Origin: a bacterium | GTDB lineage: Bacteria; Myxococcota_A; UBA9160; UBA4427 | Assembly (NCBI GenBank): GCA_024742285.1 | Contig: JANSYR010000009.1 | Span: forward strand, 62,001-126,000 | DNA: 64,000 nucleotides | Direction: 5' to 3' | In this document: one piece after another, positions 8,698-26,593 of the stretch | Position numbering within the stretch: position 1 is the stretch's first letter | How the letters are laid out: each line of letters starts with the position of its first letter | Position numbers and translations under genes: made by a program | Notes under the pieces: model-generated | Databases searched by the model: none | The model's input: the letters and a program-made list of their open reading frames with translations, nothing else | Told to the model about the DNA's origin: nothing

Positions 8698-8715
8698 CAC
8701 CGCCGCGAGGCGGTG
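8698..8715 (+). terminator. Hairpin after the ExbB-like gene
   Basis: A perfect 7-bp stem (CACCGCC / GGCGGTG) with a four-base loop lies nine bases after the ExbB-like stop. There is no T-run, so termination is possible but unproven. Confidence 0.35.
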
Positions 8716-8868
8716 TCCTCCGCGAGGCGTGAAGCGAAGGCGCCGACGTCCGCGAGCGAACGGCGCGCGCGGCCTTCTGATCCCTCGCGACCTCCGGCCG
8801 CCGCGGGGCGCGCTTCTTGCCTTTCCCCCCGCGCCTGCTTAACTCCGGCCCTCGGAGGCGCAGGACGC

Positions 8869-10512
8869 GTGGGCAAGCCTGATTTCGATCCCTATTTCTC
8901 GCATTGGGCCGACGTTGCTGCGCGCAAAGTCGTCGCCGCCCATCCCCGTGAAGAGGGCGACGAACGCCCCATCGTCTGCGCGGCCGGGATCACGCCCTCG
9001 GGCGTCGTCCACATCGGGAACTTCCGCGAGGTCATGACCGTCGACCTCGTCGCCCGCGCGCTGCGCGACCAGGGGATCCCGGTGCGTTTCATCTATTCGT
9101 GGGACGATTTCGACGTCTTTCGCAAGGTGCCGAAGGACGCGCCGCAGCAGGAGATGCTCGCCGAGAACCTGCGGCGGAGCGTGGCGGACGTGCCGGATCC
9201 GTTCGCCGACGAGAAGGCCGAACCCGCGGACTCCTACGCGAGCCACCACATCGCGGCGTTCGAATCGAGCCTCGCGCCGCTCGGGATCGCACCGGAGTTC
9301 ATCCGCCAGTCGAAGGCCTACCGCGCCGGGACCTATGCCGAAGGGATCCGCAAGGCGCTCCAGGACAAGGACGTGATCCGCGGCGTCCTCGACGAGTTCC
9401 GCAAGGAGCCCCTGGCCTCCGATTGGCTTCCGCTCGCGGGCTTCTGTCCGGCCTGCGGCCGAGACGATCTCGACTTCACCTGGGATGGCGACTGGACCGT
9501 CGATCTCCGCTGTCGGGACTGCGAGACCGAGTCGCGCGTGGATCTGCGCGAGGGCGGAAACGTGAAGCTGCCCTGGCGGATCGACTGGCCCATGCGCTGG
9601 GCGTACGAAGGCGTCTGCTTCGAGCCCGGCGGCAAGGACCACAGCTCCGCCGGCGGCTCCTACGACACGGCGAAGAAGATCGTGGGACCGGTCTACGACG
9701 GCTGGGCGCCGGAGTACGTGCCCTACGACTTCGTCCGGATCAAGGGGCGGGGCGGCAAGATCTCGAGCTCCGCCGGTGAGGCCGTCACGGTCGCCGACGC
9801 GCTCCAGGTCTACGAGCCGGAGATGCTCCGCTGGATCTTCGCGAGCCAGCGCCCCAACTCCGAGTTCCAGATCAGCTTCGACCTCGACGTGATCAAGCTC
9901 TACGAGGACTACGACCGCGCGATCGCCACGGCCTACACCCCGGACGACGGGAGCAAGAAGGACAAGAAGCGCCAGATCGTGCGGCGGACGATCGAGCTCT
10001 CCTCCACGGCCGGCCTTCGCATCTCAGCGGACGACGTGCCGATTCGGGTGCCTTCGTTCCGGCCGCTCTCGATGATCCTGCAGATCTACGACGGCGACGT
10101 GGAGCGGGCGCTCGCGTGGTACGAGGAGACGGGCGAGGTCGCGACCGACGCCGAGCGCGCGCGTTTTCGTATGCGCGCGGAGCGCGTCTGGAACTGGATC
10201 GTCGACTTCGCGCCGGACGAGTTCCGCTACCGGATCCGCGAGACGCCGGGCGACGCGACCCTCGAGGGCGAGCCCCGCCAGATCCTCGAGCGCCTGGTCG
10301 GCGTCCTCGAGGCGGATCCGGAGATCGCCGAAGACGCGCTGATCGGACACCTGAAGACGCTCTGCGACGGAACGTCGCTCGGTCCGAAGGAGTTCTATCC
10401 CTACGCGTACGAACTCCTGATCGCGCGCGAGAAGGGGCCGAAGTTGTCCACCCTGATCACGGCGATGGGCAGCGCGCGGGCACTGCCGCTGCTCCGGGCC
10501 GGGCTGGCCTGA
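8869..10512 (+). CDS. lysS: Lysyl-tRNA synthetase, class I
   Basis: Charges tRNA-Lys with lysine in the cytoplasm. It is the class I type, known from archaea and some bacteria, rather than the common class II enzyme. The HIGH-like signature is seen as VVHIGNFRE near residue 45 and the KMSKS-like loop as GKISSSAG near residue 300. Between them is a Cys-rich zinc-like region (CPACGRDD ... CRDCE). At 547 residues the length fits the family. The GTG start at 8869 is chosen because homologues begin near HWAD and a GGAGG lies about 11 bases upstream; the frame is open further upstream to an ATG at 8713. Confidence 0.93.
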   Translation: MGKPDFDPYFSHWADVAARKVVAAHPREEGDERPIVCAAGITPSGVVHIGNFREVMTVDLVARALRDQGIPVRFIYSWDDFDVFRKVPKDAPQQEMLAENLRRSVADVPDPFADEKAEPADSYASHHIAAFESSLAPLGIAPEFIRQSKAYRAGTYAEGIRKALQDKDVIRGVLDEFRKEPLASDWLPLAGFCPACGRDDLDFTWDGDWTVDLRCRDCETESRVDLREGGNVKLPWRIDWPMRWAYEGVCFEPGGKDHSSAGGSYDTAKKIVGPVYDGWAPEYVPYDFVRIKGRGGKISSSAGEAVTVADALQVYEPEMLRWIFASQRPNSEFQISFDLDVIKLYEDYDRAIATAYTPDDGSKKDKKRQIVRRTIELSSTAGLRISADDVPIRVPSFRPLSMILQIYDGDVERALAWYEETGEVATDAERARFRMRAERVWNWIVDFAPDEFRYRIRETPGDATLEGEPRQILERLVGVLEADPEIAEDALIGHLKTLCDGTSLGPKEFYPYAYELLIAREKGPKLSTLITAMGSARALPLLRAGLA

Positions 10513-10715
10513 TCGAGCGGCCGCCGCCGATTCCTCCACGGGCCGCGCGAGGCGCTCGCCCGGGGGCTCGAGGCTCTCGGAATCGAGCCCAGGCGTTTCT
10601 CTTCGTTTACCTGTTCCCCGCCATGTTAGGCTGATCGGGTTGCCCCGTGAGGGGCGGGCGACGATCGCCACCTGGATCTCCCGGGTCGGGGTCGTCTCGA
10701 CAGGAGGAACGGGTG

Positions 10716-11717
10716 ATGAAGAAGATCGAGATCCGTATTCGCAAGTCGCTGTGGGTGACACTCGTCGCGTTGCTGCTCGCTCCGGCTGCGAGCTGGGCGG
10801 AAGGCGGTTCGTCGCTGCGAATCGTGCTGACCAACGACGACGGCTTCGAGACCGAGAACATTCAGGCGCTCTTCGATGCGCTCGTCGACGCGGGCCATGA
10901 CGTGATCATGGCCGCGCCCTATCTGGGCCAGAGCGGAACCGGCGGGCAGATCGCTTTCCTGCGGCCGATCCTGCCGACGTCGGAGCCGTCGGAGGGGGGA
11001 CTGCTTCCGGCGGGCTCGCCCGGCGTCGGGCCGACCACGATCGCGCCCCAGCAATTCTACGTCGACGGGTCGCCGGCGGCGTCGGTACTCTACGGGATCG
11101 ACGTCGCAGCAGAGCAGATCTTCGGAGGGCCGCCCGACCTGGTGTTGTCCGGCCCGAACGAGGGCAACAACCTCGGCCTCGTCACGCCTCACTCGGGTAC
11201 GCTGGGTGCGACGGTGACCGCACTCAACCTCGGGATCCCGGCGATCGCGATCAGCGCGGACAGCGAGGACGAGACGGCCGAGGAGGCGGAGCTGATCGCG
11301 GCGATCACGCTTCGCGTCGTGGAAGCGGTCGCCGGCCGCCACGGAATCCGCTTGCCCCACGGCACCGGCCTGAACGTGAACATCCCGGACGTCGACCCGG
11401 CGAACTCGGCGGACGACTACGACTTCGCGCTGACCCACGTCGGGACGGCCACGAACATCGGCCTGCAGTTCTACGAGCAGATCGGCGACAGCCCGATCGC
11501 CGTCGCGTTCGGAATCCCGGCGGGCACGCCCTTCCCGGGTGTCTCGGTCGAGATCCCGTACACGGTGGCCGGCTATGCCGAGGACACGTCCACGCGAAGC
11601 GAGGGCAACGTGCTCGGCGGCACGACGGTGACGGTGAGCCCGATCCAGGGCACCTACCAGGCCGACTTCTTCCGGAGTCTCGTCGTGCGGCGCAGCTTGC
11701 GGGGTCTCTTCCACTGA
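10716..11717 (+). CDS. surE: Exported SurE-like 5'-nucleotidase
   Basis: A 333-residue SurE-family phosphatase. The family removes phosphate from nucleoside monophosphates using a metal bound by an acidic N-terminal motif, seen here as VLTNDDGFETENI; the later SGPNEGNNLG segment is also typical. Unlike usual cytoplasmic SurE of about 250 residues, this one carries a signal peptide (hydrophobic residues about 13-25, cleavage near SWAEG) and a longer C-terminal part. AGGAGG stands 9 bases before the ATG at 10716. It is flanked by gaps of 200 and 120 bases, so it is probably transcribed alone. A periplasmic nucleotidase role is inferred. Confidence 0.88.
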   Translation: MKKIEIRIRKSLWVTLVALLLAPAASWAEGGSSLRIVLTNDDGFETENIQALFDALVDAGHDVIMAAPYLGQSGTGGQIAFLRPILPTSEPSEGGLLPAGSPGVGPTTIAPQQFYVDGSPAASVLYGIDVAAEQIFGGPPDLVLSGPNEGNNLGLVTPHSGTLGATVTALNLGIPAIAISADSEDETAEEAELIAAITLRVVEAVAGRHGIRLPHGTGLNVNIPDVDPANSADDYDFALTHVGTATNIGLQFYEQIGDSPIAVAFGIPAGTPFPGVSVEIPYTVAGYAEDTSTRSEGNVLGGTTVTVSPIQGTYQADFFRSLVVRRSLRGLFH

Positions 11718-14328: not shown

Positions 14329-15294
14329 TCAGGGCGGGGTCGGGAGGCCCGTGGTCTCACCGAGCCCGAGCATCAGGTTCAGTGACTGGATCGCCACGCC
14401 CGACGCGCCCTTGCCGAGGTTGTCGAGGATCCCGACGAGCAGCACGTGGCCGGCGGCGTTCGGGAGGACGTGGAGGCGCAGCCCGTTGGTGTCGTTCAGG
14501 ACCTGGGGGTCGAGGGCGAAGTCGTCGACGGGCTCGAGACCCCGGAACTCGGCGACCTGGACGAAGGGCTCGCCCGCGTAGCGCTCCGCCAGGACCTGCC
14601 AGACCTGCGCTCCGGTCGTGCCGGCGGGGAGCAGGCTCCGATGGATCGGGACCTCGACGCGCATGCCGCACTTGAAGGGGCCGACCGCCGGAACGAATTG
14701 CGGCGGGTGCTCGAGCAGCGTGTAGGTCTGCATCTCGGGCACGTGCTTGTGGATCTTGTCGAGGGCGTAGGGGGCCTCGTAGGGCAGGCCGACGCGGCCT
14801 TCGTCCGGGGACTCCCAGCGCTCGATCAGCGTCTTTCCGCCGCCCGAGTAGCCGGACAGGCCGTGGACCGAGAGGCCGGCGCTCTTCGCGAGCAGGCCCT
14901 CGTCGACCAGCGGCCGGACCAGCGGGATGAAGATCGAGGGGTAGCAGCCGGGATTGCTGACGAGCTGGGCGTTCGCGATCGCGTCCCGGTGGTCCGGGGT
15001 CAGCTCGGGCAGGCCGAAGACCCAGTCCTCGGCGACCCGGTGGGCCGAGCTCGCGTCGACGATCCGTCCGCCGCTCTCCTTGGCCCAGCCGGCGGCTTCG
15101 ATCGCCGCGTCGTCCGGCAGACAGAGGACCGAGACGTCCGCCTCGGCGATCGCCTTCTTCCGGGCCTCCTCGGATTTCCGTTCCGACTCGGGCAGCGTCC
15201 AGATCTCGCAGTCGTCCCGTCCCGCGAGCCAGTCGCGGATCCGGAGGCCGGTCGTGCCGACGTGGCCATCGATGAAGATCCTGGGGGTAGACAT
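14329..15294 (-). CDS. argC: N-acetyl-gamma-glutamyl-phosphate reductase
   Basis: Reduces N-acetylglutamyl phosphate to the semialdehyde with NADPH, the third step of arginine synthesis. The catalytic cysteine is in the motif SNPGCYPS near residue 120. The N-terminus (FIDGHVGTTGLRI) is the nucleotide-binding part, and the 321-residue length fits the shorter, type 2 form of ArgC. Start at 15294 is chosen over an ATG at 15312, as MSTPRIFIDG matches the usual beginning. No other arginine gene is adjacent. A candidate hairpin follows its stop. Confidence 0.9.
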   Translation of the reverse strand: MSTPRIFIDGHVGTTGLRIRDWLAGRDDCEIWTLPESERKSEEARKKAIAEADVSVLCLPDDAAIEAAGWAKESGGRIVDASSAHRVAEDWVFGLPELTPDHRDAIANAQLVSNPGCYPSIFIPLVRPLVDEGLLAKSAGLSVHGLSGYSGGGKTLIERWESPDEGRVGLPYEAPYALDKIHKHVPEMQTYTLLEHPPQFVPAVGPFKCGMRVEVPIHRSLLPAGTTGAQVWQVLAERYAGEPFVQVAEFRGLEPVDDFALDPQVLNDTNGLRLHVLPNAAGHVLLVGILDNLGKGASGVAIQSLNLMLGLGETTGLPTPP

Positions 15295-15470
15295 GGCGGC
15301 GGACCGTAGCAAAAGGGGCCGAGCGCAACGATTTCGGCCTTCCTGCTCCCGGATCGGGCCGGCTTGGACCGTCGGACGGGTCGGGTCTGCCGAAGGACGA
15401 TGCCTTCACGCGCGCTTCTGCGTACCGTGGGGCGCGCCGCGCGACGCTGCGCGGGTGCGTGGAGTGTAAG

Positions 15471-16583
15471 ATGAGTGAAGAAGAGACGAGTCTCGATCGC
15501 GTGATGTCCGGGAAGACCTGGGAGGAGTTCTGCGACACCTTGAAGGCGGCCGGGAACGTGATCCTCGCCGAGGGCTCTCCGACGGATCCGCTCGATCGCT
15601 CCGAAGGCTTCCGGTACCTCTCGCGGATCACCCGTGCGTCCCTCGAACAGTTCATCGAGCACGCCGATCCGAAGGCTCCGGTCCTCCACCGCCCGGTCCA
15701 CGAGACCGCGAAGATCGGCGCCGACAATCCCGACAACTACTACCAATCCGCCGCGATCTCGGGGCAGTACGACTACCGGATCCGGGGCCAGCGCGGAACG
15801 ATCCATTACATCGACTTCGGGACCCAGTCCGATGGCGTCGCGGGAAGCGGCGAGTCGACCCAGGCGGGACACCTCGATGTCGCCGACATCGAGATGGACG
15901 CGGACGGGAACTTCGAGATCCTGCTCTCCTGCGAAGAGAAGCCCGGCAACTGGCTGCCGATGCAGCCGGACACGTCGATGCTCATCGTCCGCCAGACCTT
16001 CCTCGACCGCGACGTGGAGGTCCCGGCGAAGCTCGTGATCGAACGGATCGGGGGCGACGGCAAGCCCACGCCGCTCACGCCGGAGGCCCTCGACGGCGGA
16101 CTCAAGCAGGCGTCGGGTCTCGTGCTCGCGTGCTCGTCCCTCTTCTCGAACTGGGCGCAGGGGTTCCGCGCGAACCACAACAACCAGCTGCCCAAGTTCG
16201 ACGACTCGGTCTCGATGGGCGCCGGGGGCGATCCGAACATCTGTTACTACCACTCGTACTGGGAGCTCGCGCCCGACGAGGCCCTCGTGATCGAGGCCCA
16301 GGTTCCCGAGTGCGAGTCCTGGAACTTCCAGCTCGACAACCACTGGATGGAGAGCCTCGACTACCGGTACTTCAAGATCCACGTGAACAAGCACACGGCG
16401 CAGTACCAGGAGGATGGCTCCGTTCGGATCGTCGTGGCGCACGAGGATCCCGGCGTCCCGAACTGGATCAACACGGTCGGGCACGCGCGGGGCACGATGT
16501 GCTTCCGCTGGATCCGGGCGAAGGAGCACCCGCAGCCGGCGACCCGCGTGGTCAAGTTCTCCGAGATCCCGGGGCGCGCGTGA
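15471..16583 (+). CDS. DUF1214 domain protein
   Basis: A 370-residue protein whose C-terminal half (YYHSYWELAPDEALVIEA, WNFQLDNHWMES) carries the DUF1214 pattern. These proteins have no settled function; in actinobacteria and deltaproteobacteria they often sit beside lipid or steroid enzymes. There is no signal peptide. ATG at 15471 is chosen; an in-frame GTG lies 12 bases upstream. The stop overlaps the sulfotransferase start (GTGA), and that gene overlaps the next one, so this is the first gene of a tight three-gene operon. Confidence 0.85.
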   Translation: MSEEETSLDRVMSGKTWEEFCDTLKAAGNVILAEGSPTDPLDRSEGFRYLSRITRASLEQFIEHADPKAPVLHRPVHETAKIGADNPDNYYQSAAISGQYDYRIRGQRGTIHYIDFGTQSDGVAGSGESTQAGHLDVADIEMDADGNFEILLSCEEKPGNWLPMQPDTSMLIVRQTFLDRDVEVPAKLVIERIGGDGKPTPLTPEALDGGLKQASGLVLACSSLFSNWAQGFRANHNNQLPKFDDSVSMGAGGDPNICYYHSYWELAPDEALVIEAQVPECESWNFQLDNHWMESLDYRYFKIHVNKHTAQYQEDGSVRIVVAHEDPGVPNWINTVGHARGTMCFRWIRAKEHPQPATRVVKFSEIPGRA

Positions 16584-17842
16584 GCGAGGGCTGCCAGGTC
16601 CCGCCCTTCCCGCTGCCGATGCGCGCGGCGCTGGGAGCGTGGAAGGCGGTCGCGCGGCTCGGCGTCGGCGTGCCGCGCTTCGACGAGGCCCGGATGATCG
16701 CCGAGGCGAGGCGGAACACGGGCCTCCACGACTTCGGCGACGACGACTTCGTCGAGCCGATGCGGCGGCTCTTCTACTCGTTCGAGGAGGAGGCGGGGCT
16801 CCACCTGCTGGGACGCGCCGTGATGCGCGGCGCCGCGGTCCGTGCGCTCGAGTGCCGGCTTCGGTTGAACCAGCTCCGCGATCTCCATCCGGAGCTCGTG
16901 ACGCTCCCCGTCGATCGCCCCGTCTTCATCACCGGGATGCAGCGCACGGGCACGACCAAGCTCCACCGTCTCCTCTCCTGCGCCGACGAGCTCCGCCATC
17001 TTCCGGCGGTCGAGGCCCTCCGGCCCGCGCCCATGGGCCGGCCGATCGCGAACGAGCCCGGCGACTTCGAACGTCGCGCGCGACAGGCGAAGATCGCCGA
17101 GTGGGGGATGAAGTATCTGTCCCCGGATCTCTTCGCGATCCACCCCATCGAGGCGGACTCGCCCGAGGAGGACGTCTTCCTCTTCGACGTGACCTTCATC
17201 AGCCCGGCGGTCGACGCCTCGCTCTCGGTTCCGTCCTATACGCGTTGGATCCGCGAGATCGATCAGCGTCCGCCCTACGCCTACGTGCGCCGCCTGATCC
17301 AGCTGCTCCTCTGGCAGCGCCCCGGCCGGTACCTGGGCAAGACGCCCCACTACCAGGAGAACCTCGACGTCCTCTTCGACGTGTTCCCCGACGGCAAGGT
17401 CATCCATACCCATCGCGATCCGCGCAAGGTCGTCCCGTCCTTCGCGAGCATGATGGCCCACGCGGGTGCCCTCCTGACGAACGACGTCGACGGCGCCGAG
17501 GTCGGCCGACGGGTCGCCGATCAGATGGCCAACAGCGTGGAGCGCGCGATCGTCGCGCGACAGGCGGTCGGCGAGGGGCGGGTCCTCGACGTCCACTACC
17601 TCGATCTGATCGGGGACACGATGGGCACGATGCGGAAGATCTACGACTTCCTGGAGCTCGACTGGTCCGAGGGGGCCGTCTCGCGCATGCAGCAGTGGGT
17701 CGGCGCCAACCCGCAGCACAAATACGGTCGACATCGCTACACCCTCGCCGACTTCGGCCTGGACGGCGACGAGCTCGACGAACGATTCAAGGCCTACCGC
17801 GAACGCTTCGGCGTCGAGCGGGAAGAGCAGGGGAGGGCGTGA
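16580..17842 (+). CDS. Sulfotransferase-family protein
   Basis: A 420-residue PAPS-dependent sulfotransferase-like protein. The 5'-phosphosulfate loop is seen as ITGMQRTGTTKLHRLL near residue 115 and the 3'-phosphate site as THRDPRKVVPSFASM near residue 275. This type is common in mycobacteria and deltaproteobacteria and is thought to act on lipids or small hydroxylated molecules; the acceptor here is unknown. GTG at 16580 is chosen because it overlaps the previous stop (GTGA). It is followed without a gap by an SDR gene. Confidence 0.87.
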   Translation: MSEGCQVPPFPLPMRAALGAWKAVARLGVGVPRFDEARMIAEARRNTGLHDFGDDDFVEPMRRLFYSFEEEAGLHLLGRAVMRGAAVRALECRLRLNQLRDLHPELVTLPVDRPVFITGMQRTGTTKLHRLLSCADELRHLPAVEALRPAPMGRPIANEPGDFERRARQAKIAEWGMKYLSPDLFAIHPIEADSPEEDVFLFDVTFISPAVDASLSVPSYTRWIREIDQRPPYAYVRRLIQLLLWQRPGRYLGKTPHYQENLDVLFDVFPDGKVIHTHRDPRKVVPSFASMMAHAGALLTNDVDGAEVGRRVADQMANSVERAIVARQAVGEGRVLDVHYLDLIGDTMGTMRKIYDFLELDWSEGAVSRMQQWVGANPQHKYGRHRYTLADFGLDGDELDERFKAYRERFGVEREEQGRA

Positions 17843-18723
17843 TGGCGAAGCCGCCGCTCGATACGGACATGACGGGACGCGTCTGCCTCGTGACCGGCGC
17901 GACGGATGGGCACGGACGCGCTCTCGCGAAGCTGCTCGCGGCGCGAGGAGCCGAAGTCGTCGTCCACGCGCGAAGCGAAGACAAGGCCCGCCGGGTCTGT
18001 GCCGAGATCGCGCGCGAGACCGGGGCGAAGGAGCCGGAGATCCTGCTCGCGGACCTGTCGCGGGCGAGTGACGTCGATGCCGCCGTCGAGCGGTATCGCG
18101 CGAGCGGCCGTCCGCTCCACGTGCTCGTCAACAACGCGGGGCTCGTCGGTCTCGGTCGCGAGACGAACGAGGCCGGCTACGAGATGACCTTCGCGGTCAA
18201 CTATCTCGCGATGTTCCGCCTGACCCTCGGGCTGCTGCCTCTCCTCGAGACCTGCGGACCCGCCCGGATCGTGAACATCTCGTCGGACACCTACCGGGTG
18301 GCGAAGCTCGAGCTCGACGACCTCATGCTCGAACGCGACTACGGGATCATGAAGGCCTACGGCCAGTCGAAGCTCGCGATCCTCTACTTCACGCTCGAGC
18401 TCGCGCGGCGCATCGAGGGGCGCGGCGTGTCCGTCAATGCGGTCGATCCCGGGCCGGTCGCTTCGAACATCGGTGCGAACAACGAAGGGCTCGCCTATCG
18501 CCTGGTCGGGCCGCTGATCCGTGGCCTCTTCCCGAGCGCCGAGCGCGCGGCGCGGACGGCGCTCTGGGTCGCGACGGATCCCGGCCTCACCGAGCGGAGC
18601 GGTGGCTACTACCGGTCGCTCAAGCACCGGGTCGATCCGCTCGACTTCGATGCGGAGACGAGCGATCGGCTGTGGGCGGAGAGCCTGCGGCTGAACGAGA
18701 TGTCCGACCCGCTCCGCGACTGA
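17842..18723 (+). CDS. Short-chain dehydrogenase/reductase
   Basis: A 293-residue SDR oxidoreductase. The nucleotide-binding motif TGATDGHG lies near residue 19, NNAG near residue 95, and the catalytic Ser and YxxxK are seen in IVNISSD and AYGQSK. It should oxidise or reduce a hydroxyl/keto group with NAD(P). It overlaps the sulfotransferase stop (TGATG), forming the last gene of the DUF1214-sulfotransferase-SDR operon. Resemblance to retinol/WW-domain-type SDRs suggests a lipid-like substrate. Confidence 0.9.
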   Translation: MAKPPLDTDMTGRVCLVTGATDGHGRALAKLLAARGAEVVVHARSEDKARRVCAEIARETGAKEPEILLADLSRASDVDAAVERYRASGRPLHVLVNNAGLVGLGRETNEAGYEMTFAVNYLAMFRLTLGLLPLLETCGPARIVNISSDTYRVAKLELDDLMLERDYGIMKAYGQSKLAILYFTLELARRIEGRGVSVNAVDPGPVASNIGANNEGLAYRLVGPLIRGLFPSAERAARTALWVATDPGLTERSGGYYRSLKHRVDPLDFDAETSDRLWAESLRLNEMSDPLRD

Positions 18724-18738
18724 GTCGGCGGGCCGCGG

Positions 18739-19296
18739 TCAGCCGACGCCCGTCGGTTGGGAAAAGACGGCGAGCGAGATCACCGTCAGCAGGACGAGCA
18801 GCCCCGCCGCCAGGCCGGCGTGCACCTTCGGCTCGTCCGAGAGCGCGCCGGCGACTCCCGCGGCCAGCACGGCCGCCTGGATGCCTCGCAAGGGATGGAG
18901 CAGCGGGATCCCGAGGACGAAGGTTCCGGCGGATCCGATGGCGATGACCCAGAGACACACGCCCGAGAAGAATCGTCGGCGCACGGCGAAGTAGTGGCTC
19001 CGCCAGGAAGTGACTTCACTCGGGTCGTCGGGAATCAGCGCGCAGACGTTGAAGTAGAGGAGCGCGGGGTTGGCGAGGACCAGAAGAAAGGCCGGAAAGG
19101 TCCATTCCACGTCCCGGTAGAGCCAGAAGGCCCAGAAGACGACGGCGGTCGCGAAGAGTTTGCAGAAGACGAAAGCGAGATGGATCCAGAATCGACGCTC
19201 GGGATCCAGCGCGTGGGGAAGGCCGCCGACGAGACGCATCGCCGAGAACGAGAACACGAGGGAGAAGGCGATCGCGAGGTACTCGAAGAGGGTCAT
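18739..19296 (-). CDS. Membrane protein of unknown function
   Basis: A 185-residue protein with about five or six membrane segments (for example YLAIAFSLVFSFSAM, FVFCKLFATAVVFWAF, LWVIAIGSAGTFVLGI). No known family was recognised. It is convergent with the SDR gene, leaving 15 bases between their stops. The ATG at 19296 is chosen as the first start that gives a sensible membrane topology. Confidence 0.7.
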   Translation of the reverse strand: MTLFEYLAIAFSLVFSFSAMRLVGGLPHALDPERRFWIHLAFVFCKLFATAVVFWAFWLYRDVEWTFPAFLLVLANPALLYFNVCALIPDDPSEVTSWRSHYFAVRRRFFSGVCLWVIAIGSAGTFVLGIPLLHPLRGIQAAVLAAGVAGALSDEPKVHAGLAAGLLVLLTVISLAVFSQPTGVG

Positions 19297-19400
19297 CGTC
19301 GATCCAGCCTTTCGGTCGACTGCGTCATTCAGGTCGTCTTTCGCGGCTTCGGGCGCTCGGACCCGTTGGCCGCCGGACGGGTCGGCTTCGCTTCCCGCGC

Positions 19401-19742
19401 TCAGTGGTCCGCCACGAAGTAGGTGAGCGAACGGATCAGCCCCGCCTCCACCTCGAAGAGATCGACGACGTGCATCGACGTACCGTCGGCGAGCGCGATC
19501 CGGATCTCCGCAGCGACCCGTGGTCCGGAAGCGAGGAGCTCGCCGACGAGCTCGGGCGTCGGGCTCGCGTTGGCGATCGACTCCGCGTAGAACGCGCGGA
19601 TGGCCTCTCTTCCGGACGTCACGCGCCCCAGTCCGATCAGCGCCCCCGACGCGTGAAAGAGATCCGCGACGCCCGGGTCGCGGCTCCGGATCCGATCGAA
19701 GTACGCGAGTACCGTGTCGGTCGCAGGTCGGTCCGTCGCCAT
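19401..19742 (-). CDS. SnoaL-like (NTF2-fold) protein
   Basis: A 113-residue protein with the pattern of SnoaL-like polyketide-cyclase/nuclear-transport-factor-2 folds: an N-terminal helix (VLAYFDRIRSRD), a hydrophobic pocket region and GREAIRAFYAES. Such proteins are small isomerases, cyclases or binding proteins; the ligand here is unknown. It ends 104 bases from the membrane protein start on the same strand. Confidence 0.8.
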   Translation of the reverse strand: MATDRPATDTVLAYFDRIRSRDPGVADLFHASGALIGLGRVTSGREAIRAFYAESIANASPTPELVGELLASGPRVAAEIRIALADGTSMHVVDLFEVEAGLIRSLTYFVADH

Positions 19743-19918
19743 CGTTCGACTCCCGTGAGGATTCAGGTCGTGGCGAGCCCGTGCTCGCGCCGCTCCATCC
19801 CGCCTTACCTCGACTCGGTCGCCGGAGCTGAGCCCGGCAGGGCGCATGATTGGCGGAATAACTCTGATCCAGGGAGAGTCGCCCATCCAAGGGACGAGAG
19901 CGAACCCTTCGACGCCTC

Positions 19919-20530
19919 TCAGCCTGCGAGCGCATCCAGGGAACGTCTCAGGTTCCGCCGAGCGCGCTCTTCGAGACGCTCGAAAAAGTACTCGGTGTGG
20001 TAGAGCCTCGGGCGCGCTGCGAAGTGGGAGAGAATCCTGGTTCGCGCTTTTCGGTACGCGTCTTCTGGGACCCACTCGTATTCCCGTCGGATCTGCTCTT
20101 CGTAGGCTCCGAAGCGATCCTTGGCCGCGCCCAGGATGGAGAGGTCGATGTCGAGCAGCAGCCGCTGGTCGTCGTCGGAGGGGACTCCCGTGTGCGCCGT
20201 GACGAGAATGTGGCGTGCGACGGCCTCGGTCCGGGCGGCACCGATCCCCCCGATCGCGGTCGAGGCCCAGTCGGCGCTTCGGGCTTCGTTGTCCGAGGCC
20301 TTGGTGTCGTAGATCGCGTCGTGGAACCAGATCGCGAGTTCCAGCGCACCGCGATCAGCGAGCGTCGCCGGTGAACCGTCCAGCTGGCCGAAGCACTCGG
20401 CGAGATGGTCGGTCGTGTGATACGCGCGGTGGGGTTCGTCGTAGGCCGCGACGAGCTCCTCGAAGAGCCCCGTCGGAGCCTCGATCCCTACGCGTTGCCA
20501 GGTTTGCTGCCACCGAGTGTGAAGATCCAC
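19919..20530 (-). CDS. HD-domain metal-dependent phosphohydrolase (COG4339-like)
   Basis: A 203-residue protein of the predicted HD superfamily phosphohydrolases. The metal-binding residues are visible in AYHTTDHLAEC (His), IWFHDAIYD (His-Asp) and later VTAHTG. The usual beginning of such proteins, a Trp-rich helix (RWQQTWQRVG), supports the GTG at 20530; the frame is open to an ATG at 20623. The substrate is unknown. It is the first gene downstream of the cassette array and may be its last cassette, although no clear attC follows its stop. Confidence 0.82.
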   Translation of the reverse strand: MDLHTRWQQTWQRVGIEAPTGLFEELVAAYDEPHRAYHTTDHLAECFGQLDGSPATLADRGALELAIWFHDAIYDTKASDNEARSADWASTAIGGIGAARTEAVARHILVTAHTGVPSDDDQRLLLDIDLSILGAAKDRFGAYEEQIRREYEWVPEDAYRKARTRILSHFAARPRLYHTEYFFERLEERARRNLRRSLDALAG

Positions 20531-20671
20531 CGTTGGTCTCGTCCGTCGAGTCGCGCAGCGCGTGCTCTCGAGGTTCGTTCCAGCCTTCTCCTGGAAGGTA
20601 GGCGTTCGGGCGTCGAGCGGCACGAAGGGCGTCGCGAGTGCAGCGGCCTGTCGCGCAGCATGCGGAGAGGC

Positions 20672-21001
20672 CTATCCGCGAGTCAGCGATCCGACACAGA
20701 CGACACCGGCAGAGATCCCAAAGAAGCCACCCATCGATCCGAACGAGAACCACTCTGGAAGCAATGCCAGAGAGAGTCCGAGGGCGGCAACCGAAAGCAG
20801 AAATCTCGAAGCCAGGTCCAGTCGAGGGAAATGTGCGACTCGCTGAAAGGCGTCTACGAACGCGATGAGGAGCACGGCCGTGAAGGATCCGAGGAGTCCT
20901 CCCACCAGGCCACTCTGATCACGAAGACCCCAGTAGCCAGCGATCGTCAACAGGAAGACGATCATCGTGCAGCCACCGAGATACACGGCGAAGAATTTCA
21001 C
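20672..21001 (-). CDS. Small membrane protein, cassette-borne
   Basis: A 109-residue protein with about four hydrophobic segments (FFAVYLGGCTMIVFLLTIAG, LLGSFTAVLLIAFVDAF, FLLSVAALGLSLALLP, FFGISAGVVCVGS). No family is recognised. The GTG at 21001 is preferred; an ATG at 21034 lies almost inside the attC end. The stop lies in GGATAGG, next to a degenerate attC-like region reaching down to about 20590 (GTGCAGCGGCCTG). Function unknown. Confidence 0.65.
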   Translation of the reverse strand: MKFFAVYLGGCTMIVFLLTIAGYWGLRDQSGLVGGLLGSFTAVLLIAFVDAFQRVAHFPRLDLASRFLLSVAALGLSLALLPEWFSFGSMGGFFGISAGVVCVGSLTRG

Positions 21002-21044
21002 GTGGACCGACCTCGGTCTGCCGCGTCGCCGCATACCGCATACC

Positions 21045-21210
21045 GCATGCCGGATCAGCCGATCCGCCGCGAGTTCGCCGGGGCAGACTGATCGAGGTCC
21101 GACCATCATGGCCCTGTGAGGGGATCGGCTTCGAAGGAGAAGCGCCAGGAAGCCGCGGAGATCCGAGATCCTCTGGGCGAATCGACCGCCAGGACGAAGG
21201 CCTTTCATGC
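21045..21210 (-). repeat. attC-like site G
   Basis: Begins at GCATGAA, in which the TGA is the stop of the upstream 204-residue gene, and ends GGCTGATCCGGCATGC. The middle shares ATCTCCGCGGCTTCCTGGCG with other sites in inverted orientation. The end box GGCATGC departs from GTTRRRY, so this copy may be inactive. TATGC is duplicated just beyond it. Confidence 0.6.
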
Positions 21211-21819
21211 GGCTGGAGGCTCGCCCGTCAGATATCGACTCACGGGATCGTCCGACCACACCTGAATCTCGACGAAGATCTCGAAGGGACGTCGGTGGTA
21301 CCCGTCGTACGCGAGATCGAGTTGCGGATCGGGGAGTCCCCACCGCTCGGCGATCGCGGGGATCTCATCCAGCAGAAACACCTGTTCATGATAGGGCTTC
21401 GGCTCTTGTGGGAATCCGAACTCGAGACTGAGCGCCATCGCCACGAAGCTGTCGGGGTACGTCACCGAGGTCGATCGCGGCGGTAGGTCCTTCAGGTCGA
21501 TTCGAATCGCGCGCGTGTCGGGATAGAGTCCGGCGAACCAACGGCACTCCCCGAGACAGAAGTAGTGTGGAGATGCCCGCTCCGTCATGCCGCCTCGGGT
21601 CTCGAACATCTGCCGGAGGCGCGACTCGGTCCGCCGACGCATGTCCATGTACTTCGGGCCGTAGGTGCGCTTGTACGCGTCGTCGGATCGCGAGTCTCGG
21701 CTCAGATCGCGAAGAACGTCGTCGAGTGTATTCCCTTCCAGGTCACTCAGGTTCTGGAAGGGGTGTCGTCGACCGTCGTAGTAGTGCGTCGCGAAGTCAG
21801 GGACCTTCGTAGGGACCAC
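21205..21819 (-). CDS. Cassette-borne protein of unknown function
   Basis: A 204-residue soluble protein with no signal peptide, rich in charged and aromatic residues (THYYDGRRHPFQNL, YFCLGECRWFAGLY). No known domain was recognised. The GTG at 21819 is the only sensible start and has GAGGAAGGAG directly before it. The stop is embedded in the following attC-like site. It is the largest soluble cargo in the array. Confidence 0.7.
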   Translation of the reverse strand: MVPTKVPDFATHYYDGRRHPFQNLSDLEGNTLDDVLRDLSRDSRSDDAYKRTYGPKYMDMRRRTESRLRQMFETRGGMTERASPHYFCLGECRWFAGLYPDTRAIRIDLKDLPPRSTSVTYPDSFVAMALSLEFGFPQEPKPYHEQVFLLDEIPAIAERWGLPDPQLDLAYDGYHRRPFEIFVEIQVWSDDPVSRYLTGEPPAA

Positions 21820-21834
21820 CTCCTTCCTCGCAGT

Positions 21835-21961
21835 GGGCTGATCGAGGTAAGGGGATCGTAGCCTGTCGGCCCGAGCGACCTTGGGCGCGAAGCGCCGGGA
21901 GACCGCGGAGCTCCATACCCGACTCAGGAAGATGTCTTACGGGTTCAGAGGCTCGCTATGC
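21835..21961 (-). repeat. attC-like site F, truncated
   Basis: Begins GCATAGCGAGCC, matching GAATAGCAAGCC of site C, and keeps the shared middle (GCGCTTCGCGCCCAAGG). After TACCTCGATCAGCCC it breaks off, and the final GATCCG-plus-box segment found in other sites is missing, replaced by the ribosome binding site of the next gene. Confidence 0.55.
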
Positions 21962-21975
21962 GGCTGCGGCGGGGA

Positions 21976-22287
21976 TCAGCGGAAGATCCGATCGCACGCG
22001 ACGACCAGCCCGGGAAGCACGAGTACAACGAATCGCGCGAGAGCCAGGGTTCGGCCGAGCGAAGAGGTTCCGAGCTGCTCAGGCTCTCCGCTGTGTCGCG
22101 CCATGTCCTCTTCTGAGATCAACACGACGAACACGAAGATTCCCACGGTTCCGATCGCGATTCCCGTCCACAGGTAGCCGGCCGCGAAGAGTAGACCCCA
22201 CCCCACGAGCGCTGCGGCGCCACCAAGGATTGAGGGAAGATCTCGAAGACTCAGATCTCGATGATTCGCGTTCCGGCCAGCGCTCAC
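21976..22287 (-). CDS. Small membrane protein, cassette-borne
   Basis: A 103-residue protein with two or three membrane segments (AALVGWGLLFAAGYLWTGIA, GIFVFVVLIS, FVVLVLPGLVVA). No family was recognised. The start is GTG at 22287, at the end of attC-like site E; the stop TGA at 21976 lies 15 bases before the first box of site F. Function unknown. Confidence 0.65.
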   Translation of the reverse strand: MSAGRNANHRDLSLRDLPSILGGAAALVGWGLLFAAGYLWTGIAIGTVGIFVFVVLISEEDMARHSGEPEQLGTSSLGRTLALARFVVLVLPGLVVACDRIFR

Positions 22288-22494
22288 ATGCTACGGATCG
22301 ACCGAGCGAAGGCTGAGCTGAAGCCGTACAACGAATCAGTCAAATTCCTGCGGCGCTTGCCATCGTCGCCATCTGGAGTAGATCCAGGTCGTCGCGAGCA
22401 CAGCACGAGCGGCCTTTTCGGTGGAGCCGAGATGGGGATGAAGAGGTCGCACATCGCCAGCCAACGCCCTGTCGGCTTCGAGAGCTTGTTGTTC
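22288..22494 (-). repeat. attC-like site E
   Basis: The first box is GAACAAC (22488-22494), followed by AAGC as in site B; the other end is GATCCGTAGCAT. Between them is the common CACGAGCGGCC segment (inverted). At about 207 bases it is the longest copy and its ends differ from consensus. Confidence 0.5.
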
Positions 22495-22511
22495 GGCGGT
22501 CGTCGATGGTG

Positions 22512-22796
22512 CTAGGGATGCCAGGTCTCGCCGCAGATGTCGTGTTCGCGACACTCCTGACGAGCGTTCTCTTCGTATTGCTCCCACTCGCGACTCGCCG
22601 CTTGGCGGAGAGACTCACAGCGCTCGGGTTCATGCGAGTGAGCCTCGAGACACTCTCGGTAGTCGGCTCTGGCTTGCTTCGTTTGTTCGAACTGCGCTTG
22701 AACGCAGCCCGCGGCAGCCAACACAGCGAAGGCCAACGTCAGGAGCGGCCTCCCGCCGACGGATGCAGGATTCGAGCGAACGTTTCGGATCAGCAT
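22512..22796 (-). CDS. Small lipoprotein, cassette-borne
   Basis: A 94-residue protein with a lipoprotein signal: basic start, hydrophobic stretch PLLTLAFAVLAAAGC, and lipobox AAGC near residue 31. The mature part is very hydrophilic and helical, with four Cys spaced along it (ECLEAH, RCESL, ECREHDIC), which could form disulfides in the periplasm. No family was recognised. It begins 15 bases after the end of attC-like site D. Confidence 0.7.
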   Translation of the reverse strand: MLIRNVRSNPASVGGRPLLTLAFAVLAAAGCVQAQFEQTKQARADYRECLEAHSHEPERCESLRQAASREWEQYEENARQECREHDICGETWHP

Positions 22797-22810
22797 AGTC
22801 TGCGCATGCC

Positions 22811-22977
22811 GCGTGACGGATCAGCCAATCACCGGCGGAGTTCGCCGGGGAGGACGGTTCGAGGTACAGCGATCGTAGCCCATGGACACGAGCGGCCTTG
22901 GGCGCGAAGCGTCAGGGGCGGCGTAGCCCCGTTGCAAACTCGAGAAACTGTCTGTCGGGTGCAGCGCCTTGCTATTC
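22811..22977 (-). repeat. attC-like site D
   Basis: Begins GAATAGCAAGGCGCTGCAC; the TAG is the stop of the upstream lipoprotein gene. Ends GGCTGATCCGTCACGC. The two halves pair imperfectly and the middle closely matches sites C and F. The end box GTCACGC differs from GTTRRRY. Confidence 0.65.
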
Positions 22978-23493
22978 GGCGTGCGCGTCCGGGCACGAGT
23001 AGACGGTCATCATCAGGCGAGTCGCGAATCGTGTTCCGTCTTCCGACCAGTACTGGCGGGATCGATTTCCGCACTCGTCCAGAGAGTCTCGAAATCGAAG
23101 CGTAGCAGTCGGAACGCCGCGGACTTCAAGTCGCCCCTGGCCCGCTTCGAGCGAATCGACCACCAACCGGAGCAAATAGCGCCGGCTGGATTCGTCGAGA
23201 AGCGCTATCTGGCGAGAGCGATCGGCGAGCTCGTCGAATGACGAGAGGGCGTGCGGCTTCAATCGGCCCTCGTCGATCATTTCCTCGATCCGATCTTGCA
23301 CCAGCCCGCGGTCTAGTTCGATCTGCGCTTCGCCCCAACTGAACTGAACAACTGCCTCGGAGAACGTGCCGGCGAGGTTCACAGATGATGCATTCTCACA
23401 TTCGCGCGCGGAGCATGGCGGATATGACGCGCAGCCATTGACTAGCTGCAATGTGAGAATGAGTATCGGCAGGAAGCGTGTCGATACGGTCAT
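22972..23493 (-). CDS. Lipoprotein, cassette-borne
   Basis: A 173-residue protein with a lipoprotein signal (FLPILILTLQLVNGC; lipobox VNGC near residue 21). The mature part has mixed helices and strands, with no recognised domain. ATG at 23493 is chosen; GTG six bases upstream is possible. Its last residues are Ala-Glu followed by TAG, all within the first box of attC-like site D, a layout typical of integron cassettes. Confidence 0.75.
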   Translation of the reverse strand: MTVSTRFLPILILTLQLVNGCASYPPCSARECENASSVNLAGTFSEAVVQFSWGEAQIELDRGLVQDRIEEMIDEGRLKPHALSSFDELADRSRQIALLDESSRRYLLRLVVDSLEAGQGRLEVRGVPTATLRFRDSLDECGNRSRQYWSEDGTRFATRLMMTVYSCPDAHAE

Positions 23494-23513
23494 CGTCACT
23501 CGCAGGGCATGCC

Positions 23514-23681
23514 GTACTACGGATCAGCCCATCACTTGCAGACTTCGCCGGCGCGGGCTGATCGAGGTATCGCGATCGTAGCGAAGCGGCACGAGCGGCC
23601 TTGGACGCGGAGCGTCAGGAGGCCGCGGAGCCCCGTTCCAATTTCGGCCAACTGTCTGTCAGGTTCATGGGCTTGCTATTC
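23514..23681 (-). repeat. attC-like site C
   Basis: Begins GAATAGCAAGCCCATGAACC and ends GGGCTGATCCGTAGTAC. The middle (GCTCCGCGGCCTCCTGACGC and GTGCCGCTTCGC) is nearly the same as in sites D and F. The first box starts eight bases past the upstream stop. Confidence 0.65.
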
Positions 23682-23688
23682 GGCGGAC

Positions 23689-24081
23689 CTAGGGCTCAGA
23701 GACCGGGGACCAGAGCACAAGGACTCCGCCGTGGACTTCGGCGGTCTCTTCGACCAATGCACTCTCGGCGTTCAGCTCTTCCACGGAGAGAACGAAGCGC
23801 TTTCTCGCATGGCAGTCGTACGCCCCGCTCGTCTGATCGACGATCACTTCCGAGGCGAAGCCGATATTTCCGAGTGATTCGCAGGCTTCGGACGCGGCTT
23901 CGTATGTGTCGAAGACGAGCTCGAAGTCGATCAAATGGGGCTTCTCGAGCTCCCACCCGGCATCTCGAGCAACCTCGATCATGTGCGCATTCAGCTCGCG
24001 TCTGGAGCTCGACGGCGACATCGGGTCGCAGCCGACGGCTACGAAGAGAATCACGATTGCCGCGGTCGAGATTCGGCTCAT
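23689..24081 (-). CDS. Small lipoprotein, cassette-borne
   Basis: A 130-residue protein with a short signal (ISTAAIVILFVAVGCD; lipobox AVGC near residue 16). The mature domain has an alternating pattern and conserved-looking Cys residues (ACESLG, YDCHARK), without a recognised family. The ATG at 24081 starts 16 bases after the attC end box; the frame runs upstream into attC, so earlier starts are unlikely. Predicted to be membrane-anchored in the periplasm. Confidence 0.72.
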   Translation of the reverse strand: MSRISTAAIVILFVAVGCDPMSPSSSRRELNAHMIEVARDAGWELEKPHLIDFELVFDTYEAASEACESLGNIGFASEVIVDQTSGAYDCHARKRFVLSVEELNAESALVEETAEVHGGVLVLWSPVSEP

Positions 24082-24097
24082 GCGGTCGGTGTCTTCC

Positions 24098-24271
24098 GCA
24101 TAACGGATCAGCCGATCACCTGCGGGCTTCGCCGGCGTCGGTCCGATCAATGTTCAGAGTCTGCCGCCAGGTGGCATGAGCCGACCTCTTTCGGCGTACA
24201 GCTGGAAGTCTGGGCGGCGGAGGCCGCGCACGCAAGGCCAACCGCCCGCCAGGTGCAGCGGCTTGTTATTC
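24098..24271 (-). repeat. attC site B, best preserved
   Basis: First box GAATAAC, then AAGCCGCTGCACCTGGCGGG; end half GCAGGTGATCGGCTGATCC and last box GTTATGC. The halves form the imperfect palindrome expected of attC (AGCCGcTgCACCT against its complement), with a long loop between. The stop TAA of the upstream gene is within the first box. Both boxes fit or nearly fit RYYYAAC/GTTRRRY. Confidence 0.82.
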
Positions 24272-24550
24272 GGCGTTTTTGCCTCGAAGAATCATGACCG
24301 CAAGCGCAGTCGCCACCACGAGTAGAAACGAGGATTGAATCGAGAGCGGCGTCTCGAAAGATCCTTGAACGACGTTCCGACCGATTCGGTATGCGTGAAT
24401 CAACGCGAACTCGACCGACTTCGGATCATCGACCTGGTATTCAACGCCGCTTGGGATCGTCTCCGCCCAGGTGATCACGAATGGTGAGTACGCATACAGC
24501 GACACAAGCACGGCGACGACCACGATCGATCCGGCAACGACGTATCTCAT
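24266..24550 (-). CDS. Small two-segment membrane protein, cassette-borne
   Basis: A 94-residue protein with an N-terminal membrane segment (VVAGSIVVVAVLVSLYAYSPF) and a C-terminal one (SSFLLVVATALAVMIL), joined by a loop of about 50 residues. No family was recognised. ATG at 24550 is chosen because the alternative at 24568 lies in the attC box. It ends with Ala-Glu-stop inside attC site B. Confidence 0.72.
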   Translation of the reverse strand: MRYVVAGSIVVVAVLVSLYAYSPFVITWAETIPSGVEYQVDDPKSVEFALIHAYRIGRNVVQGSFETPLSIQSSFLLVVATALAVMILRGKNAE

Positions 24551-24564
24551 CTGCTTAGCATGCC

Positions 24565-24625
24565 GCATAACTAGCTGGCCGCCAGATAGCCGCCCACTGG
24601 CTGCCTGCAGTGCTACCGGTTAGCA
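24565..24625 (-). repeat. attC-like site A, short type
   Basis: Runs from TGCTAAC to GTTATGC in 61 bases, the usual length of a compact attC. The inner parts (CTGCAGGCAGCC and GGCTATCTGGCGGCC) are partly complementary. It differs in sequence from sites B-G, as expected for a cassette of another origin. Confidence 0.6.
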
Positions 24626-24805
24626 CGGTCGGTTGGGGCGGAAGGCAGACGCAGTCGAGCCGCATCTGGGGGGACGAATACAGTGATCGAACCGGCCAGC
24701 GGGGGTTGAGAAGCTCGCGAGCGTGTCGCTCTTCACCAACGCAAGTGCCCGGCCCCTGCGGAAGCGTGTCCAGGTCAACGAGCGACGCTGACTCCGGGCG
24801 CAGGG

Positions 24806-25636
24806 CTACTCCTCGAGACGGACCCAACCGAATCCTGAGAGACACTGTTCGAGCGTGTCGACGGTTCCGAGTGCTGCACACGTTCCGCGAGCGTCACGTC
24901 GCAGGCCCGGCAGCGCCTTGGTCTCTTCGCGAGGCACGAACGCCAAGATTCGTCCGTCCGCGAGTCGGAAGATTATTGTGTTCGCGGACATCATCGTCAG
25001 GCATTCCGCCAACTCAGCGCCCGCGCGGCCTCCGCGTCGATCGCATTCGCGCTTCCACTGATCGAAGACGCCCTGCGTCCGTCGGTCATTCTCGGGCCCG
25101 AATCCAGGGTCCCGGAGACTCGATTCGTAGGGTGACTTGTCTTCGTCAGGGCAGGGTTCGTTCCGCTCCTCGTTCTGCGCCTTTCCGACGAGTCGACAGG
25201 TCGAATCGCATTCGAGGCCTTCGAGCTCCATGCCGTCATCGCGGATGAACGACGGCTCCAGGGCGTAGACGGTCCACCGGAATCCCATCTCACGACCTGC
25301 TCTTGACACCTGCCTCCGCCGGAGTGGCGCACGGAAGGCATAGCGAGAACCCGCCTCCGCCTCGAAGGCGATGCTGCAGGTCATCGACACGATGGGAGTC
25401 CCGAACATCCCCCGCCCCGCGTTTCGCGAGAACCCGAGAACGTGCCTGCCGGGCAGGACCTGGGCGGTGCTCGTCCCGACGTCTTTGCCGTCGACACTGA
25501 CGAGCCTTGCGCGATCTCGCGTCTCGATGACAGCGATCTCACTCGACTCGCGTTCGGGGCCGGCGTACATCCGGGCGGATTCACACGCGAGGAGGACCAT
25601 GGAAAGGGCGGTCAGGCTGGCGAAGCGGCGGGTCAT
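24806..25636 (-). CDS. Lipoprotein, first cassette-like gene of the array
   Basis: A 276-residue protein with a lipoprotein-type signal (ASLTALSMVLLACES; lipobox LLAC near residue 16). The N-terminal half contains a segment ARLVSVDGKDVG...LPGRHVLGFS that resembles PEGA-like surface folds; this is tentative. The C-terminal half has many Cys (ECDSTC, EPCPDED, ECDRRGG), likely disulfide-bonded. ATG at 25636 is chosen because the signal peptide begins there. A gap of 180 bases with nothing recognised separates its stop from attC-like site A. No attC was seen upstream, so it may be the array edge. Confidence 0.7.
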   Translation of the reverse strand: MTRRFASLTALSMVLLACESARMYAGPERESSEIAVIETRDRARLVSVDGKDVGTSTAQVLPGRHVLGFSRNAGRGMFGTPIVSMTCSIAFEAEAGSRYAFRAPLRRRQVSRAGREMGFRWTVYALEPSFIRDDGMELEGLECDSTCRLVGKAQNEERNEPCPDEDKSPYESSLRDPGFGPENDRRTQGVFDQWKRECDRRGGRAGAELAECLTMMSANTIIFRLADGRILAFVPREETKALPGLRRDARGTCAALGTVDTLEQCLSGFGWVRLEE

Positions 25637-25718
25637 GGCATGCCTGACCTGGTTCGATCGGGTTCGATCTCGCGAGTATTCTCGAACGAGTCGATCATGC
25701 GTGATCCAGCGAGACGTT

Positions 25719-26183
25719 TCAATCGACCCGGCCTGCGAGTGGCTGCCCTCGCTGCCATCGAGGACCGTAGAGATCGTCGATGCCGAGCCCAGCCTCGAGC
25801 CGATCCTCTCCACACGGCGCTACAGGCGGCGGATCCAGCGCCTCGAAGACTTCGCGCACCCGTCCGTCCTCGGCATCGAACGTCAGCCGCCCCGTGCGGA
25901 AGCCGAAGAGGACCTTGATCTCACCGACCACCGTGTCGCCCGCGACGAGGTGGATCGGCTGCCCGTAGTGGCGCTTCGCGAAGAGCTCGAACGCGCGTCG
26001 TCCGTCGGAGCGTAGCTGGACCTCGATTTCCGAAGTCTCGTCGGGGTCGGCGCGGACCGCCGCCACGTTCGATGCGCAGAGGTGGAAGACGGGTTCGGCG
26101 GATCGCGGAGCCAGGGCGCACGCGCTGATCGCGAGGGCGAGGCCCGAAGCAAGGATCCGTTCGGTCCGCGTCCCCGACATCAT
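25719..26183 (-). CDS. Small lipoprotein-like exported protein
   Basis: A 154-residue protein with a signal (ILASGLALAISACALAP; lipobox ISAC near residue 21). The mature part includes VFHLCASNVAAVRADPDE and FELFAKRHYGQPIHLVAGD, without a recognised family. The start lies two bases past the stop of the upstream membrane protein, so the two form an operon. It is not bounded by attC-like repeats, so it is taken as chromosomal. Confidence 0.7.
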   Translation of the reverse strand: MMSGTRTERILASGLALAISACALAPRSAEPVFHLCASNVAAVRADPDETSEIEVQLRSDGRRAFELFAKRHYGQPIHLVAGDTVVGEIKVLFGFRTGRLTFDAEDGRVREVFEALDPPPVAPCGEDRLEAGLGIDDLYGPRWQRGQPLAGRVD

Positions 26184-26185
26184 GC

Positions 26186-26593
26186 TCAGAAGGGCCCTGC
26201 CGGGTCGGAGCGGCCTTCCCGGATCTGTCGCCACCCGATGAACGCGAGCGTCGGCGCCAGCACACCCAGCCCGTTCAGCGCCACGCCACCCCATCTCGCC
26301 CAGGGCGACGGCCAGAGCGACGGGTCCGCCACGAGCGCGTTCTGGATCGTGAGCAGCGCCGGGACGGCGAGGAGCGACGCGATCGCGACGTAGACGCCCG
26401 GGAACGCCCGGACGAGCGCATAGAGCGCGCCGGTCGACGCGACCGCGAAGATCGCGACGTTCCCCGACGCGGTCGGGCCGAGGGCCTGCTCCCCCTGGCC
26501 GAGACGCCAGAGGCCGACGATCTGCCACAGCGCGACGAGTACGCCGTAGGCGATCTGGAGCTGGACGGCGAGGCGCATCGTCGGCGGAATCAT
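26186..26593 (-). CDS. Small four-segment membrane protein
   Basis: A 135-residue protein with four membrane segments (LQIAYGVLVALWQIVGLW, VAIFAVASTGALYALV, VYVAIASLLAVPALLTI, ALNGLGVLAPTLAFIGW). No family was recognised. It is followed after two bases by the small lipoprotein gene; 51 bases separate it from the gene upstream on the same strand. Confidence 0.7.
   Translation of the reverse strand: MIPPTMRLAVQLQIAYGVLVALWQIVGLWRLGQGEQALGPTASGNVAIFAVASTGALYALVRAFPGVYVAIASLLAVPALLTIQNALVADPSLWPSPWARWGGVALNGLGVLAPTLAFIGWRQIREGRSDPAGPF

Follow-up and report, generated by a model that had tools for sequence, protein, structure and literature searches.

Genes and repeat blocks at the locus

The window analyzed here is a stretch of 64,000 nucleotides (positions 62001-126000 of contig C9) from a 6.55 Mb genome in 56 contigs (95% complete, 4% contaminated). 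Between window positions 20541 and 24607, on the minus strand, seven open reading frames (ORFs) are interleaved with related repeat blocks. The features of this array and its surroundings are as follows.

20541-26213, no strand assigned: variable segment delimited by blastn breakpoints, with conserved flanks, i.e., an HD-like protein on the left and a membrane protein (26186-26593) on the right
24806-25636, minus strand: putative lipoprotein of 276 aa, upstream of the attI-like site and within the segment absent from the related genome G003; by the sites found, no cassette
24561-24607, minus strand: attI-like site with which the array begins; the L box is eroded, the R box (CTAGTTATGCGGCA) intact
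24266-24568, minus strand: cassette 1 ORF, putative membrane protein of 100 aa whose ends look hydrophobic by eye, no family at cut-off
24094-24274, minus strand: attC1, the one site whose boxes are intact and that folds into a full attC hairpin; crossover intact; 151.8 bits (in the model's training set)
23689-24081, minus strand: cassette 2 ORF, 130 aa, lipobox-like start, RraB (PF06877; 33.3 bits versus a cut-off of 23.3)
23510-23684, minus strand: attC2, crossover mutated (GTA), core lost; 179.8 bits (in the training set); 89% identical to an attC on contig C27 by blastn
22972-23499, minus strand: cassette 3 ORF, 175 aa, lipobox-like start, no family
22807-22980, minus strand: attC3, crossover mutated (GTC), core lost; 146.9 bits (in the training set); poor fold, z -0.4
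22512-22796, minus strand: cassette 4 ORF, 94 aa, lipobox-like start, no family at cut-off
22322-22497, minus strand: attC4, diverged, crossover GTT kept; 48.5 bits, E 2e-10 (outside the training set)
21976-22287, minus strand: cassette 5 ORF, 103 aa, putative membrane protein
21822-21934, minus strand: attC5, partial, R' end and crossover lost; 58.9 bits over model positions 34-146 (outside the training set)
21205-21819, minus strand: cassette 6 ORF, 204 aa, no family
21041-21213, minus strand: attC6, eroded, core GGC (lost); 55.6 bits, E 4e-12 (outside the training set)
20672-21109, minus strand: cassette 7 ORF, membrane protein of at most 145 aa (start uncertain), with a DUF417 match below cut-off

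The array is a CALIN, i.e., an integron cassette array without an integrase, and as such is ordinary in kind and well supported. It holds six attC sites, where at least two are called for, and no integron integrase was found nearby, either by a genome-wide TIGR02249 search or by tblastn on C9:22001-146000. An initial annotation had described eight genes alternating with related repeat blocks. The alternation itself was borne out, and blastn with C27 sequence, which does not depend on the covariance model, recovered the window blocks with up to 89% identity over 184 nt (E 4e-64); six attC sites were recognized, not one per gene. A covariance-model search, proposed in the same annotation, matched all six blocks, with rough E values of 2e-10 to 6e-43. 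As the model was trained on attC1-3 among the window blocks, it is circular for these three, for which the blastn comparison provides independent evidence; the three untrained sites, attC4-6, reached E 2e-10 or better, and attC5 is also 79% identical over 134 nt to a C27 attC by blastn. A seventh attC at around 20630-20682 scored 9.1 bits, which is noise level, and Rfam scans gave no match.

The best block reads GCCGAATAACAAGCCGCTGCACCTG ... CAGGTGATCGGCTGATCCGTTATGCGG on the minus strand, in the order R''-L''-spacer-L'-R' that constitutes the attC layout. The attribution of attC architecture was further upheld by folding of the bottom strand, in which attC1 forms an R helix, a 4-nt spacer (GATC) and an L helix with extrahelical bases (z -2.3). 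A full attC hairpin, i.e., an unpaired central spacer, extrahelical bases and a variable terminal structure, was obtained for attC1 and for one C27 attC, whose bottom strand likewise has an R helix, an unpaired spacer and an L helix with extrahelical bases, but not for attC3; fold z-scores were weak for attC2 and attC3. Pairing R''/R' boxes with a G|TT crossover are present in attC1 and attC4 and in all ten C27 sites, and are lost in attC2, 3, 5 and 6. The GAATAAC and GTTATGC boxes reported for the array are intact in attC1 only, the box of attC4 being changed with GTT kept. Stop codons had been placed in the first box, which is true of three of the seven cassette ORFs (GAATAA in cassette 1, GAATAG in cassette 3 and GCATGA in cassette 6) but not of the others. 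The attC family is 171-185 nt in length, with a longer terminal structure, and thus lies outside the 57-142 nt of known attC sites, a range that is observed rather than strictly defined (PMC2727003).

Might the blocks be ordinary dispersed repeats or terminators, whose alternation with genes is coincidental? They do form strong hairpins. Genome-wide, however, covariance searching mapped 51 sites at E < 1e-4, nearly all in arrays; the repeats occur almost exclusively between single ORFs in cassette arrays, one of which starts at intI and attI, and not unrelated to genes. This map contradicts the coincidental reading, which we regard as extremely improbable. One lone attC-like site was seen at G000:C2:60287-60456; it scores 40.8 bits and lies next to a weak match to a tyrosine recombinase at C2:59949-60134.

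A known family was recognized in one of the seven cargo ORFs, the RraB protein of cassette 2; the other six have no family at cut-off. Judged by eye, the seven include three ORFs that start with a lipobox-like motif and three that encode hydrophobic membrane proteins. PADLOC detected no known defence genes among the cassette proteins, and no relatives of cassette 6 were present among 40 related genomes.

The complete integron and the attI-headed arrays

A single integron integrase scored above the cut-off genome-wide (C27:37377-38318; TIGR02249, 438.9 bits versus a cut-off of 265). Its full-length alignment with 2A3V, a solved integrase structure from Vibrio, has an E value of 3e-76, and the catalytic R, HxxR, H and Y are readable in the C27 protein. 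The attI of this integron, GGTTACTAACTAGTTATGCGGCA (core 38713-38733), lies on the upstream side of intI, and ten attC sites of the window family, the best of them 89% identical to a window site by blastn, lie beside intI and attI and extend to the contig end. The ends of C27 and C1 share an overlap of 141 identical bases by which the contigs can be joined; the integron thus continues into C1 with 23 further recognized attC sites (C1:819379-834710), and comprises intI, attI and at least 33 attC. An intI adjoining attI, as in a complete integron, is present on C27 but not in the window. Here the initial annotation was right that no integrase is visible at the array: tblastn with the C27 integrase revealed no convincing intI or remnant within ~60 kb, the best match on C9:22001-146000 having an E value of 1.9. 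Its call to look for intI elsewhere in the genome led to this complete integron with the same attC family.

By sequence comparison, the head of the window array qualifies as a putative attI, in that a G|TT core precedes the first cassette and the site is homologous to the attI beside intI. It is identical to the C27 attI at 35 of 45 positions, with 15 nt exact at the R box, while its L box reads GGCGGCCAGC as opposed to GGTTACTAAC in C27. In a weight-matrix scan, with a matrix built from four heads (C27, C30, G003 and G008) and the window site left out, it scored 32.8 bits, the next best score in 124 kb being 6.4. Chance resemblance was considered and rejected, since shuffled sequences peaked at 28 (n = 200) compared with 40 for the site, and the matrix scan also speaks against it.

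Alternatively, the array may have been seeded away from attI, with main-integron cassettes inserted by the integrase into a non-classical, attG-like site of the genome, the head being a look-alike or the terminus of an attC since lost. The attC family common to the window array and the main integron would fit such an origin, and cassette insertion at attG sites is documented in work cited in PMC12444791. However, the similarity of the head to attI spans 45 nt and takes in the stretch upstream of the R box, no other such site exists in 124 kb, and its position coincides exactly with the start of the array; moreover, the attC family reads GATCCGTT before the crossover, versus TAGTT or similar in attI. 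Off-site seeding is accordingly judged unlikely.

With the attI-like site as the proximal end, the gene at 24806-25636 falls outside the array in which it had initially been counted, upstream of the head; a covariance search with filters off found no attC for it. This putative lipoprotein has a 28% identical relative at C10:145124-145981, and the sequence before its start (GGCATGCC) resembles the cassette starts of the window array.

A genome search with the attI core pattern, allowing up to three mismatches, gave three matches, each of them exact: on C27 with intI, at C30:19833 and at C1:490999. The reversed control pattern gave none. The C30 and C1 sites each precede attC sites in the right orientation (C30:20267; C1:489511 and 488880), and no intI lies beside either. 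In total, the genome has one integrase and four attI-headed arrays (C27, C30, C1 at 489-491 kb and the window), and all three integrase-less arrays with an assembled head start with attI.

On C30 (region 15001-20833, local positions 4793-4854), an array without intI begins with a near-identical copy of attI, which aligns with the C27 attI region over ~62 nt; both this attI and the first attC are intact. This array may continue on the end of C9, although the two contig ends do not overlap, so that their joining is conjectural. On C1 (region 480001-495000, local positions 8698-11021), the array is small, with two attC sites that both lack the crossover, two ORFs in the first cassette and no intI. 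Its attI carries the CT variant also present in the attI beside intI of G007, and hence may stem from another integron lineage. Among relatives, contig C286 of G008 has an attI-headed array with no intI match on the contig. Integrases that read toward the array are known from Treponema, and in G003 (C212), G007 (C328) and G008 (C534) intI appears to do so instead of reading away; G003 and G007 have a second intI in the usual orientation, and the G008 intI contains an internal TGA.

These arrangements raise the possibility, which we hold to be rather doubtful, that several attI-headed satellite arrays rely in trans on a single integrase, with at least the C30 array still gaining cassettes from the C27 integrase. 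The integron would then be a dispersed, multi-platform system.

Decay of the sites and history of the locus

In the C27-C1 array, the 13 attC sites nearest attI all retain the G|TT crossover, and nine of the 20 that follow have lost it, most of these lying at the distal end; over all 33 sites, crossover loss rises with distance from attI (Mann-Whitney p = 0.0001). This fits insertion at attI followed by outward ageing. In the window array, cores are intact in two of six attC (attC1 and attC4), so this array is mostly fossil, which suggests that it is no longer renewed; the difference in decay from the first six main-array sites was suggestive but not significant (Fisher p = 0.06).

In G003, a genome of the same genus, both flanks of the variable segment lie on one contig with mostly 78-89% DNA identity, and two unrelated genes lie between them. 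No attC array was detected at this locus, where the covariance model gave one marginal match (18.8 bits) at the edge. As the flanks lie together there without the array, the 5.7-kb segment, which takes in two genes upstream of the attI-like site, is either lineage-specific or was lost in G003.

Taken together, the data make it very probable that this is a relic integron array, one that either lost its own integrase or never had any. An integron integrase, which recombines folded bottom-strand attC with attI, would have added the cassettes one by one at the attI-like site; this enzyme would be either one formerly encoded at this locus or that of C27 acting in trans. Because new cassettes enter at attI, the far end would be the oldest. 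Renewal presumably ceased, after which the sites eroded; today, cassette 1, with its intact attC1, could perhaps still be moved by the C27 integrase, and most other cassettes would be locked in place, persisting as ordinary genes. Action in trans, the order of loss and the present inactivity of the array are what we infer from these observations. Against this explanation, no cassette was found to be shared with another place in the compared arrays and relatives, so there is no sign of past movement in the window array. Further points against it are the length of the attC sites (171-185 nt versus 57-142 nt), the weak folds of attC2 and attC3 and the above-mentioned p value of 0.06.

As to whether the integrase was lost or the array was founded without one, we lean slightly towards a second complete integron at this locus, whose integrase was removed by deletion or replacement. 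Two intI genes are present in several genomes of the order (G003, G007, G019, G032 and G039), and integrase loss would be expected to leave an attI-headed array behind; foreign DNA may also have replaced intI, given that G003 lacks the DNA at 24607-26213, upstream of attI. On the other hand, no intI fragment is left near the array and an intact integron was found at this locus in no relative.

Relation to known integron systems

CALINs are about as numerous as complete integrons, accounting for about half of the elements detected by IntegronFinder, and it has been suggested that they represent degraded integrons (PMC9024848). In Xanthomonas genomes they occur away from the intI locus, and they can be mobilized in trans (PMC12444791). 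As IntegronFinder does not detect attI outside class 1 (PMC9024848), attI remnants at the heads of CALINs go unseen. The present genome is unusual in having several integrase-less arrays that each retain attI. We found no paper on such a case, albeit with partial coverage of the literature, which makes this weak evidence. The observation bears on the origin of CALINs, i.e., as degraded integrons, by off-site insertion, or as platforms used in trans; with attI at all three assembled integrase-less heads, decayed or satellite platforms are favoured over random off-site insertion. Searching for attI at array heads is a simple test that can be applied to the CALINs of other genomes.

Mobile integrons with a truncated intI1 are a known case of an attI-headed array left without a working integrase, and the window array is likewise attI-headed and integrase-less. 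It differs from these in being chromosomal, with no transposon or resistance gene seen, and in its eroded sites.

Sedentary integrons usually carry their own homogeneous attC family. The family in this genome, put forward as new in the initial annotation, is homogeneous and the genome's own, and new in that sense only. With the sedentary chromosomal integrons of Vibrio and Xanthomonas, the system further shares a long array beside intI and attI (on C27 and C1) and mostly unknown cargo, whereas the window array has no intI and the attC sites exceed 57-142 nt.

The window array resembles the CALINs of IntegronFinder in having at least two attC in a single orientation, few and eroded, with no intI nearby. 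The presence of a complete integron at another place in the genome is also seen in Xanthomonas (PMC12444791, PMC9024848). In contrast to these, the window array retains a recognizable attI at its head.
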